DNA of 64,000 nt from Sphingobacteriaceae bacterium (lineage in GTDB: Bacteria > Bacteroidota > Bacteroidia > B-17B0 > Aurantibacillaceae). The notes beneath the pieces were generated by a model that saw only the letters and a program-made list of their open reading frames with translations, made no database searches and was not told the origin of the DNA. Made by a program: the position numbers and the translations under genes. Where the stretch lies: assembly GCA_947480015.1 (NCBI GenBank), contig CANKBS010000004.1, positions 1 through 64,000 of the forward strand. Direction: 5' to 3'. Positions within the stretch are counted from its first letter, which is position 1. Every line of letters starts with the position of its first letter. Positions 55,607-58,377 of the stretch are shown in pieces.

Positions 55607-56590
55607 ATGAAAGTAACTATTGACGGTATAGAAATTGATGTGCCTAAGGGAACGACGATTCTTCAGGCAGCTCGTATGATCGGTCCTGAGGTAGCCCCGC
55701 CGGCCATGTGTTATCACTCCAAATTAAAAACCAGTGGTGGTTATTGCCGCACCTGTATAGTAAAGGTAACTCAGGGTAGCGCTGCTAACCCAACACCAAT
55801 GCCAAAACCAGTGGCTTCCTGCAGAACAGAAGTGATGGATGGCATGGTAGTAGAGAACTTTATTAATAAAGAAGTATTAGAAGCCCGTAAAGGCGTGGTT
55901 GAGTTTTTACTCATTAATCACCCTTTAGATTGTCCGGTTTGTGACCAGGCCGGTGAATGTAAATTACAGGATCTTGGTTACGAAAACGGCGCTGCTTCTA
56001 CACGCTACGAATTTAAGCGTCGTGAGTTTGAAGTGATTGATATTGGTGATAAAATTAAATTACACATGAACCGTTGCATCCTTTGCTACCGTTGTGTAAA
56101 AACAGCCGACCAAATTACCAACGACCGTGTGCATGGGGTGATATCACGAGGTGATGCTTCTGAAATATCGACCTATATTGAGAATGTGATCGACAATGAT
56201 TTTTCTGGAAACGTAATTGATGTTTGTCCGGTTGGAGCATTAACAGATAAAACTTTCCGATTTAAACAACGTGTTTGGTTTACCAAACCGGTTGATGCGC
56301 ACCGTGATTGTAAGGTGTGTAGCGGGAAATCCCGTGTGTGGTTAAAAGGTGAAGAGGTGTTACGCGTAACTGCACGTAAAGATCAGTGGGATGAAGTGGA
56401 GGAGTTTATTTGTAATTCGTGCCGTTACGATCACAAAAAAACCAGCGATTGGGTTATTGAAGGACCATCGCCGGTGAACAGAAACTCAGTGATTTCTCAA
56501 AATCATTACGAGCATCTGAATCAATTAAAATTACAGGTATTAAAACAGCAAAAAGCATTGGGCTTTATGCCATTGGATAAAAAACCTTAA
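55607..56590 (+). CDS. nuoG: NADH-quinone oxidoreductase subunit G, short form
   Basis: The 327-residue protein has the N-terminal [2Fe-2S] ferredoxin domain (YHSKLKTSGGYCRTCIVKVT), the His/Cys cluster in NHPLDCPVCDQAGECKLQDL, and the two-cluster region with CILCYRCVK and VCPVGALTD. It stops after about 330 residues, so the large C-terminal molybdopterin-oxidoreductase-like domain of the E. coli protein is missing, as in other Bacteroidota. Its ATG directly follows the nuoF stop. Confidence 0.93.
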   Translation: MKVTIDGIEIDVPKGTTILQAARMIGPEVAPPAMCYHSKLKTSGGYCRTCIVKVTQGSAANPTPMPKPVASCRTEVMDGMVVENFINKEVLEARKGVVEFLLINHPLDCPVCDQAGECKLQDLGYENGAASTRYEFKRREFEVIDIGDKIKLHMNRCILCYRCVKTADQITNDRVHGVISRGDASEISTYIENVIDNDFSGNVIDVCPVGALTDKTFRFKQRVWFTKPVDAHRDCKVCSGKSRVWLKGEEVLRVTARKDQWDEVEEFICNSCRYDHKKTSDWVIEGPSPVNRNSVISQNHYEHLNQLKLQVLKQQKALGFMPLDKKP

Positions 56591-56613: not shown

Positions 56614-57669
56614 ATGGTAGAATTCATTATTTATAAATCAATCATCTGTGTGGTCATCTTTGCAGTTTCCTTAGGAATTGCAGCGTATTCTACCTGGTGG
56701 GAACGTAAATTTGCCGGTTTATTACAAGATCGTTGGGGTCCAAGTCGTGCCGGTTGGTGGGGCTTACTGCAACCTTTGGCCGATGGTGGTAAAATGTTGT
56801 TCAAGGAAGAGATCATTCCCAATGTGTCGAATAAATTTTTATTTGTATTAGCGCCGGGTTTATTTATTGTTACCGCAATTATGGCGGGGGTTTTAATTCC
56901 GTGGGGTCCAGCAGTAAGCATTAACGGCACTTCCTATCCATTGCAGATTTCCGATATCAATGTGGGTGTGATCTTTTTATTGGGTGTAACATCGATAGGT
57001 GTGTATGGCATTATGATCGGTGGTTGGTCATCCAATAATAAATATTCGTTGTTAGGCGCTATTCGTGCATCGGCTCAGATGATCTCTTACGAATTAGCCA
57101 TGGGTATTGCCCTTATTGCATTAATTATTACTTCAGGTGGCACTTTAAGTTTCAGTGAAATTGTAGCCAAACAAGATGCCGGATTTGCCAATGTCGTTTG
57201 GCAGCCCTTGGGTTTTATTATTTTCTTTGTTTGTGCCATGGCTGAAACCAACCGTGCGCCATTTGATTTGGCAGAATGTGAGACAGAATTAGTGGGTGGT
57301 TATCATACCGAGTATTCTGCTTTTAAATTAGGTTTGTTTTTATTTGCTGAGTACATCAACATGTTTGTGTCCTCAGCTGTAATGGCCGGTTTTTATTTTG
57401 GCGGATATAATTTTCCTTTTGCACATGAAATTTATAATGCCATGGGTTTACAAGAAGGATCCTGGGTCATTTCTTTAATTGGTTTTGGCGCTTACTTTGT
57501 TAAGACCCTCATCTTTATTTCGGTATTTATGTGGATACGCTGGACGATCCCGCGTTTCCGTTATGACCAGTTAATGAATTTGGGTTGGAAAAGTTTATTG
57601 CCTTTATCACTTTTAAATTTAGCAATTACAGTAGTGGTGGAATATTTCAGAGGAAATATTCAGTTTTAA
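56614..57669 (+). CDS. nuoH: NADH-quinone oxidoreductase subunit H
   Basis: This 351-residue membrane subunit near the quinone channel has eight hydrophobic segments, the conserved WWERKFAGLLQDRWGPSRAG and the CAMAETNRAPFDLAECETEL loop, plus FRYDQLMNLGWKSLLPL near the end. It is followed by a very small ORF and nuoI. Confidence 0.96.
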   Translation: MVEFIIYKSIICVVIFAVSLGIAAYSTWWERKFAGLLQDRWGPSRAGWWGLLQPLADGGKMLFKEEIIPNVSNKFLFVLAPGLFIVTAIMAGVLIPWGPAVSINGTSYPLQISDINVGVIFLLGVTSIGVYGIMIGGWSSNNKYSLLGAIRASAQMISYELAMGIALIALIITSGGTLSFSEIVAKQDAGFANVVWQPLGFIIFFVCAMAETNRAPFDLAECETELVGGYHTEYSAFKLGLFLFAEYINMFVSSAVMAGFYFGGYNFPFAHEIYNAMGLQEGSWVISLIGFGAYFVKTLIFISVFMWIRWTIPRFRYDQLMNLGWKSLLPLSLLNLAITVVVEYFRGNIQF

Positions 57670-57670
57670 A

Positions 57671-57775
57671 ATGAAAATAATAAAGAAAATAAAATTTGTA
57701 GTTAATCTGATGGAAGCTTACCATATCTATGTTTTACTAGTTGTGGCTTTTCTTTCATTGATAAAATCAAACTAA
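57671..57775 (+). CDS. Predicted small single-pass membrane protein between nuoH and nuoI
   Basis: This open frame encodes 34 residues, too short for an ORF cut-off. It starts one base after the nuoH stop and ends two bases before the nuoI ATG, filling the gap exactly. The sequence has a basic N-terminus (MKIIKKIKFVV), a Glu/His segment (LMEAYHIY), and a hydrophobic stretch (VLLVVAFLSLI) of one transmembrane length, ending in KSN. I know no family for it. Precise fit to the gap supports a gene, but chance or a decayed remnant cannot be excluded. Confidence 0.4.
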   Translation: MKIIKKIKFVVNLMEAYHIYVLLVVAFLSLIKSN

Positions 57776-57777
57776 AA

Positions 57778-58377
57778 ATGCAGTTAACTAACAGAAGCAA
57801 AGTAGTATCAAACAAAGTTCAGAGTTTCTCAGAAAGGATCTATTTCCCGGCTATTATTTCGGGAATGGCCGTAACTTTCAGCCATCTTTTTAAAAAGAGA
57901 CCTACCATTATGTATCCCGAACAAAAAAGGGAAATGGCACCCATTTATCGCGGTCAGCATGTTTTAAAACGTGATGAAAACGGCGCCGAACGCTGTACCT
58001 CTTGTGGTATGTGCGCTGTGGCTTGTCCTGCTGAAGCCATTACCATGACCAGTGGTGAACGTAAAAAAGGCGAAGAAGGTTTGTACAGGGAAGAAAAATA
58101 CGCCAAGACTTATGAGATAAACATGTTGCGTTGTATTTTTTGCGGCTTGTGCGAAGAAGCTTGTCCGAAAGAAGCCATCTTTTTAACCGACCGCATTGTG
58201 GATGCTGATTACGAACGCGATGATTTTGTTTATGGTAAAGATAAATTAGTTGAAAAAGTGGATAAGCGCATTGATGTTACCAAGCGTCAAACCCCTGAAG
58301 TGTTGGCATTTAAAAAGATTCCGGGATTAAAACACAATGAGTTGTATACCGATAAATTAAATAAAGGAAAACACTAA
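57778..58377 (+). CDS. nuoI: NADH-quinone oxidoreductase subunit I
   Basis: This 199-residue subunit holds two [4Fe-4S] clusters, seen in CTSCGMCAVACPAEAI and CIFCGLCEEACPKEAI, each with the four-Cys ferredoxin pattern. The N-terminal helix contacts the membrane arm. A small ORF precedes it by two bases. Confidence 0.96.
   Translation: MQLTNRSKVVSNKVQSFSERIYFPAIISGMAVTFSHLFKKRPTIMYPEQKREMAPIYRGQHVLKRDENGAERCTSCGMCAVACPAEAITMTSGERKKGEEGLYREEKYAKTYEINMLRCIFCGLCEEACPKEAIFLTDRIVDADYERDDFVYGKDKLVEKVDKRIDVTKRQTPEVLAFKKIPGLKHNELYTDKLNKGKH

Follow-up and report, generated by a model that had tools for sequence, protein, structure and literature searches.

Bacterial complex I is usually viewed as a core of 14 subunits. 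Bacterial additions to it are described in Paracoccus, where the accessory subunits are NDUFS4, NDUFS6, NDUFA12 and a methyltransferase (PMC11522691). Single-helix accessory peptides, NdhP and NdhQ, are known in cyanobacterial NDH-1, a relative of bacterial complex I, and NdhP is described as essential for the assembly of NDH-1L (PMC4131877). In cyanobacterial NDH-1L the NdhL subunit adjoins NdhA and is touched by the N-terminal helix of NdhI (PMC6992706). CydX, a 37-residue protein, is encoded in the cytochrome bd operon (PMC4325964). Here we describe a gene of 34 codons plus a stop codon, with the product MKIIKKIKFVVNLMEAYHIYVLLVVAFLSLIKSN, which lies between nuoH and nuoI at positions 57671-57775 (plus strand) of a 64,000-nucleotide stretch of a Sphingobacteriaceae bacterium genome (GCA_947480015.1, contig CANKBS010000004.1, positions 1 to 64,000; hereafter the window). 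A first-pass annotation of this DNA had proposed that the open reading frame (ORF) encodes a membrane microprotein. It had also remarked that small accessory subunits are not known as standard partners in bacterial nuo operons, a remark to be qualified by the single-helix peptides of cyanobacterial NDH-1 (PMC4131877).

Results

A conserved microprotein gene under purifying selection

The window's family comprises 87 genomes, of which the window's genus contributes 40 (the order contains the same number of genomes as the family). NuoI was found in 79 of the 87 at an expect value (E) of 1e-50 or lower, and all counts of gap contents use these 79; the eight genomes without NuoI gave no match to the microprotein profile at E ≤ 0.01 either. 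A homologous ORF of 29-35 codons occupies the exact nuoH-nuoI gap in 24 of the 79 genomes. These holders belong to the window's genus (15/40) and to two others (g25, 5/7; g203, 4/19), and none was found among the 13 genomes of six further genera. In all 24 holders the gene immediately follows nuoH, and nuoI comes next in the 23 that have nuoH and nuoI on one contig. In the remaining genome (G021) a contig break splits nuoH from nuoI, and the second contig, which carries nuoI, begins inside the microprotein gene; its two profile matches are thus the two contig ends of one gene.

To judge whether the ORF is coding, a codon model was fitted to the 24 members, with the start codon excluded and 30 codon columns used. 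The ratio of replacement to silent rates (omega) was about 0.18, and twice the log-likelihood difference from omega = 1 was 148.6 (100.5 for the window's genus alone); this null was run on the tree of the free model, and its kappa was selected among seven values. As such a model could be biased by peptide-based alignment, six sister pairs were also pooled. They contain 101 changes, 41.0 silent and 60.0 replacement, and the silent share of 0.406, compared with a mean of 0.245 under neutral placement, was reached in none of 2000 simulations. In addition, each of the other two frames contains at least one stop in every one of the 24 members. These results establish that the ORF is a genuine microprotein gene under purifying selection and not a product of chance.

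Among single-base shuffles of the window's gap, a fraction of 0.0013 (of 3000) contained an ORF of at least 34 codons beginning with ATG, GTG or TTG, and the same fraction ranged from 0.0003 to 0.023 for 20 members tried. The ORF has a G+C content of 0.25, compared with 0.40 for nuoH, which is what an open frame arising by chance in an AT-rich gap might show. That explanation is nevertheless refuted, for practical purposes, by the 24 homologues, the purifying selection and the shuffles.

Conserved residues and predicted structure

The members share a basic N-terminus, the motif E-G-x-[EH]-[IL]-Y, a hydrophobic stretch and a lysine near the C-terminus. The glutamate (E15 in the window, codon at 57713-57715, plus strand) is kept in 23 of 24 members and the adjoining Gly/Ala in 19; Glu or His follows three residues further on in 22. 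In the window this second position and the tyrosine lie within codons 18-20, H-I-Y (57722-57730, plus strand). Further conserved positions are Tyr (18 of 24), Ala (19) and Ser/Ala (21), and a Lys near or at the C-terminus is present in 20. The first eight residues carry a net positive charge in 22. The first-pass annotation had put forward MKxxKKxK as the conserved signature; this was not borne out, the conserved parts being the E-G-x-[EH]-[IL]-Y motif and the C-terminal half.

With the 24-row alignment as input, AlphaFold2 predicted one uninterrupted helix over residues 2-33 (mean predicted local distance difference score 92.2, predicted TM score 0.42). The best 17-residue Kyte-Doolittle mean lies between 1.4 and 2.4 across the 24 members. 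According to the positive-inside rule, a basic N-terminus faces the cytoplasm. If the helix spans the membrane, the N-terminus would therefore be cytoplasmic, and the acidic pair would lie in the cytoplasmic part of the membrane stretch. The proposal of a membrane-type microprotein gene in the nuo operon is supported: the gene is conserved in related Bacteroidota, in frame wherever it is present, and under purifying selection.

The gene is confined to one junction and is present patchily

Whole-genome profile searches of the 87 family genomes gave no true second copy at E ≤ 0.01 outside the nuoH-nuoI junction. One second locus (G012, E 9.5e-5) was rejected as the match is antisense to a 303-residue ORF. 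Outside the family, no match at E ≤ 0.001 was obtained in two samples that share some genomes: 395 genomes of the class, searched with a 20-member profile, and 395 of the phylum, searched with a 24-member profile. In the class, the lowest value for a genome outside the family was E 0.0015.

Where the gene is present the nuoH-nuoI gap measures 97-136 nucleotides (nt) (23 measurable holders), and in 45 of the 55 genomes without it the gap is only 5-22 nt. The other ten gaps without the gene, of 32-185 nt, hold sequence that is unrelated to it or cannot be recognised, except for weak resemblances to the gene. In a search for remnants in ten empty gaps of 28-190 nt, two (G017, G029) scored narrowly above all 60 shuffles. 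The scores of the others were equalled by 2 (G459), 4 (G062), 10 (G009 and G027 each), 16 (G426), 34 (G453), 35 (G019) and 36 (G466) of the 60 shuffles. The sequence of two or three long empty gaps, out of ten tried, may thus bear a weak likeness to the gene. The near relative G009 (also L010; NuoH 91% identical) has a 94-nt gap without a family member, in which an inverted pair, AATCACT/AGTGATT, can be seen by eye.

In the first-pass annotation, the absence of a conserved ORF, or frame-breaking indels, in the gaps of close relatives had been taken to count against the proposal. The ORF is indeed conserved in the 24 holders, but its presence is not uniform: in G001 and G030 NuoH is 92-93% identical, yet the gap is 10 nt long and contains no ORF. 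Absence describes many relatives and does not describe the family as a whole, and no clearly frame-broken copy was seen in the family's nuoH-nuoI gaps.

To follow presence and absence, a quick IQ-TREE phylogeny of NuoH plus NuoI was made from the 79 rows and five outgroup NuoH rows. Presence requires at least 18 changes on this tree, 14 of them forced by well-supported branches; if one gain is allowed, 30 losses are needed. Shuffled labels required 20.7 changes on average, and 52 of 500 shuffles were as low as the observed value, so that presence is nearly unclustered. The distances between the peptides correlate with those between the NuoH/NuoI sequences (Mantel r 0.50, reached in 0 of 5000 permutations), and the members are therefore mostly old residents of the operon. 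One pair of holders, G449 and G460, shares 97% identity in the gap and 94-96% in the adjacent 100-nt flanks, compared with 85-86% in nuoH and 88-92% in nuoI farther off; the peptide gene shows a silent divergence of 0.11 and nuoH one of 0.44. This hints at a recent local exchange in the sequence of this pair. A similar rise in identity next to the gap is seen in G018 and G061, and between G460 and the non-holder G448, so the flanks of G449 and G460 by themselves prove little. Repeated loss with occasional recombination fits the patchiness best, while the counts alone do not separate gain from loss.

Eleven residue splits in NuoH and NuoI passed the frequency filter, some of them with a single usable pair. 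For the best split among the rows listed, the 14 independent pairs divided on average into 6.3 in favour, 0.7 against and 7.0 with no difference.

Searches for known families

The window's microprotein matched no Pfam or NCBIfam model at E ≤ 1. When 20 members were compared with Pfam-A at E ≤ 1, the only match was DUF3918, for one member (E 0.13). The CydX model, which we take to be among the Pfam models, was accordingly not matched by any of these 20. A model of antiporter subunit C was matched by two of 24 members (best E 0.04) and was judged a chance match. A profile of 20 members searched against PDB sequences at E ≤ 10 returned only four, all of one unrelated human-type checkpoint protein; NDH-1L structures are among the PDB chains (PMC6992706), and no similarity to NdhP, NdhQ or NdhL was detected in this search.

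A fragment of a core Nuo subunit, such as the N-terminal helix of NuoI or NuoK/MrpC, was also considered and rejected: hhalign gave a probability below 1% for each of NuoH, NuoI, NuoJ, NuoK and NuoG, and no alignment with NuoA. The scores for NuoH, NuoJ, NuoK and NuoG fell within the range of 30 column-shuffled decoys. That for NuoI (13.2) exceeded the best decoy (11.3), but over seven columns only (NuoI 121-127), far from the N-terminal helix, and it was therefore judged to be chance. Among the top-ranked results for fixed phrases in the open-licence PMC literature, no title or abstract described an ORF between nuoH and nuoI. In the main text of the Pro-SMP finder paper the terms 'nuo' and 'NADH' do not occur (PMC10903887).

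Organization of the locus

The upstream neighbour nuoH, encoding a complex I membrane subunit (56614-57669, plus strand), was identified with the Pfam model NADHdh (E 3.1e-114) and NCBIfam NuoH models. The downstream neighbour nuoI, encoding an iron-sulfur subunit (57778-58377, plus strand), was identified with the NCBIfam NuoI model (E 2.6e-42). The nuoH stop codon TAA (57667-57669) is separated by one base from the microprotein ATG at 57671, which gives the junction TAA-A-ATG (57667-57673, plus strand). The microprotein stop codon (57773-57775) is followed after two bases by the nuoI ATG at 57778, in the junction TAA-AA-ATG (57773-57780, plus strand). The coordinates and the close fit of the ATG-initiated frame reported in the first-pass annotation are thus confirmed. 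In the window's ORF list the nuo-type ORFs run from nuoA to nuoM (names other than nuoH and nuoI were assigned by reading), and the widest spacing between neighbours among them is the 108 nt of the nuoH-nuoI gap.

Close junctions are general among the members. In 21 of 24 the microprotein start falls within -1 to +4 nt of the nuoH stop, with a one-base overlap in three (G060, G434, G439). Between the microprotein stop and nuoI there are 1-9 nt in 18 of the 23 members that could be measured and 18-39 nt in the other five. The nuoI starts were placed by alignment to the window's NuoI (in G008 the ATG is six bases earlier). The start codon is ATG in 16 of the 24 members. No Rfam match up to E 1 was obtained in 57400-58000 when structured RNA was searched for.

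Upstream of nuoH, the nuoG-like ORF (named by reading) at 55607-56590 of the window has only 327 residues. E. coli NuoG, with 908 residues (PMC8357420), is far longer.

Other inserts at this junction were seen elsewhere in Bacteroidota. In two other families of Bacteroidia (L039, L045) the gaps are 502 and 585 nt long and hold ORFs that look alike, that of L039 matching the 23S rRNA-intervening-sequence protein (Pfam, E 2.8e-32); stretches of 11 and 20 nt are repeated inverted near both ends of these gaps. In three Flavobacterium genomes (L125, L129, L130) the junction is 613-771 nt long with an ORF of 174-175 residues, which in L125 matches ORF6N (E 1.7e-38), and the 222-nt gap of L124 contains sequence resembling the tail of this ORF. 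A 953-nt gap (L118) carries a 266-residue ORF of the cation-efflux family (E 7.7e-15). Because of the inserts in L039 and L045, in the three Flavobacterium genomes and in L118, the nuoH-nuoI junction looks insertion-prone in Bacteroidota, judging from this junction alone.

Discussion

The place of the gene points to a role in complex I. Given that in the genomes searched the gene occurs only between nuoH and nuoI, that its junctions are close and that its constraint is residue-specific, we consider that the microprotein is, by a narrow balance of probability, an optional, lineage-specific single-helix accessory subunit or assembly helper of complex I. It would be made from the nuo operon transcript, with translation passed on from nuoH and then over to nuoI; the sequence of the junctions fits such translational coupling along the operon. 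The helix may pack against NuoH near the N-terminal helix of NuoI, with its basic N-terminus staying in the cytoplasm. The conserved pair of Glu and Glu/His would lie towards the cytoplasmic end of the helix and could then make polar contacts with the complex. The manner of binding might be that of CydX on cytochrome bd or of NdhL, NdhP and NdhQ on cyanobacterial NDH-1, and the peptide would presumably stabilise or tune complex I. Because the gene is missing from most relatives, its product would tune or assist the enzyme and not be essential to it. A more specific proposal is possible but rather doubtful: that an optional helix subunit at the NuoH/NuoI heel, with acidic residues in the membrane, is switched repeatedly by loss and recombination and tunes quinone-site or coupling behaviour.

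Several observations weigh against assigning the peptide to complex I. The gene is absent from 55 of 79 genomes, near relatives included, and complex I therefore plainly works without it. The peptide evolves much faster than NuoH. Seven of 24 members begin with TTG and one with a doubtful CTG, and one holder (G002) has His in place of the key Glu. Among the rows listed no NuoH or NuoI residue follows its presence convincingly, and the position of a gene does not by itself show physical association. Since the conserved acidic residues lie inside the predicted membrane stretch, there is also room for a helix with an amphipathic N-terminal half that lies on the membrane surface instead of spanning it.

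The want of convincing covariation with NuoH and NuoI would suit a membrane microprotein that is expressed from the nuo promoter but has its target elsewhere, in lipids or a different respiratory complex, or serves as a stress regulator, and the targets described for bacterial single-helix proteins are many and varied (PMC10903887). We regard this as unlikely, as every match at E ≤ 0.01 in the 87 family genomes is at the nuoH-nuoI junction, save for the antisense match in G012. Distinctly less probable is that the peptide serves as a translational bridge, keeping ribosomes moving from nuoH to nuoI while its product matters little. The abutting starts and stops of most members and the one-base overlaps in three of them are what such a bridge would show; however, no bridge is needed in the 45 gene-less gaps of 5-22 nt, five holders leave 18-39 nt before nuoI, and neither the omega of 0.18 nor the conserved pattern of E, E/H, Y, A and K is explained. 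Coupling alone thus does not explain the gene, because in most genomes that lack it nuoI follows close behind nuoH.

The very patchy presence, the unrelated inserts at the same junction in other Bacteroidota and the pair G449/G460, in which a nearly identical gap lies between more distant nuo genes, could instead suggest a selfish or toxin-like insert in an insert-collecting junction, spread by recombination through the flanking nuo genes. This we hold to be very improbable. Gaps of 97-136 nt have, by reading, room for little but the ORF, each holder has one true copy always in the same place, and peptide relationships follow those of the operon; moreover, the rise in identity towards the gap also occurs in other pairs, so that the flanks of G449/G460 are not a specific sign.

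If the more specific proposal, of an optional helix subunit switched repeatedly, is correct, the family would offer a natural plus/minus experiment on complex I. An effect of the microprotein is testable, as the tree has many neighbours that differ in its presence. A survey of accessory subunits in prokaryotes sought homologues of the mitochondrial ones (PMC12361115) and would therefore be blind to a lineage-specific peptide of 30 residues. A conserved, optional microprotein in the nuo operon suggests that such parts have been overlooked.

Compared with known systems, the gene appears from sequence comparison to belong to none of the described groups. The Paracoccus accessory subunits are likewise bacterial additions to the 14-subunit core; they are homologues of mitochondrial subunits or an enzyme, and not single-helix peptides of about 30 residues. 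NdhL is a small accessory membrane subunit at the place proposed here for the microprotein, as it adjoins NdhA, which we take to be the counterpart of NuoH. NdhL is larger than the microprotein. It differs also in having a cytoplasmic C-terminal part (PMC6992706), and no PDB chain of it was matched by the microprotein profile. NdhP and NdhQ resemble the microprotein more closely, being single-helix peptides below 5 kDa in a relative of complex I (PMC4131877, PMC6992706), but the microprotein is optional, and at E ≤ 10 none of these chains in the PDB was matched by its profile. CydX, CydY and CydZ are also very small, with one predicted helix, and are encoded in the operon of the enzyme they serve; CydY and CydZ were found, like the microprotein, as conserved short ORFs beside structural genes (PMC4325964). 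CydX serves a different enzyme and is tied closely to one form of CydA (PMC4325964), whereas the microprotein has no Pfam match, adjoins nuoH and nuoI rather than lying in a cytochrome bd operon, and is nearly unclustered on the NuoH plus NuoI tree. What it shares with CydX is to be a conserved short ORF under purifying selection among the genes of a respiratory enzyme, and by analogy CydX may be taken as the nearest parallel in kind, not in homology. The microprotein would thus represent a new small family, in a new place, of a known kind: the accessory microproteins encoded in operons.
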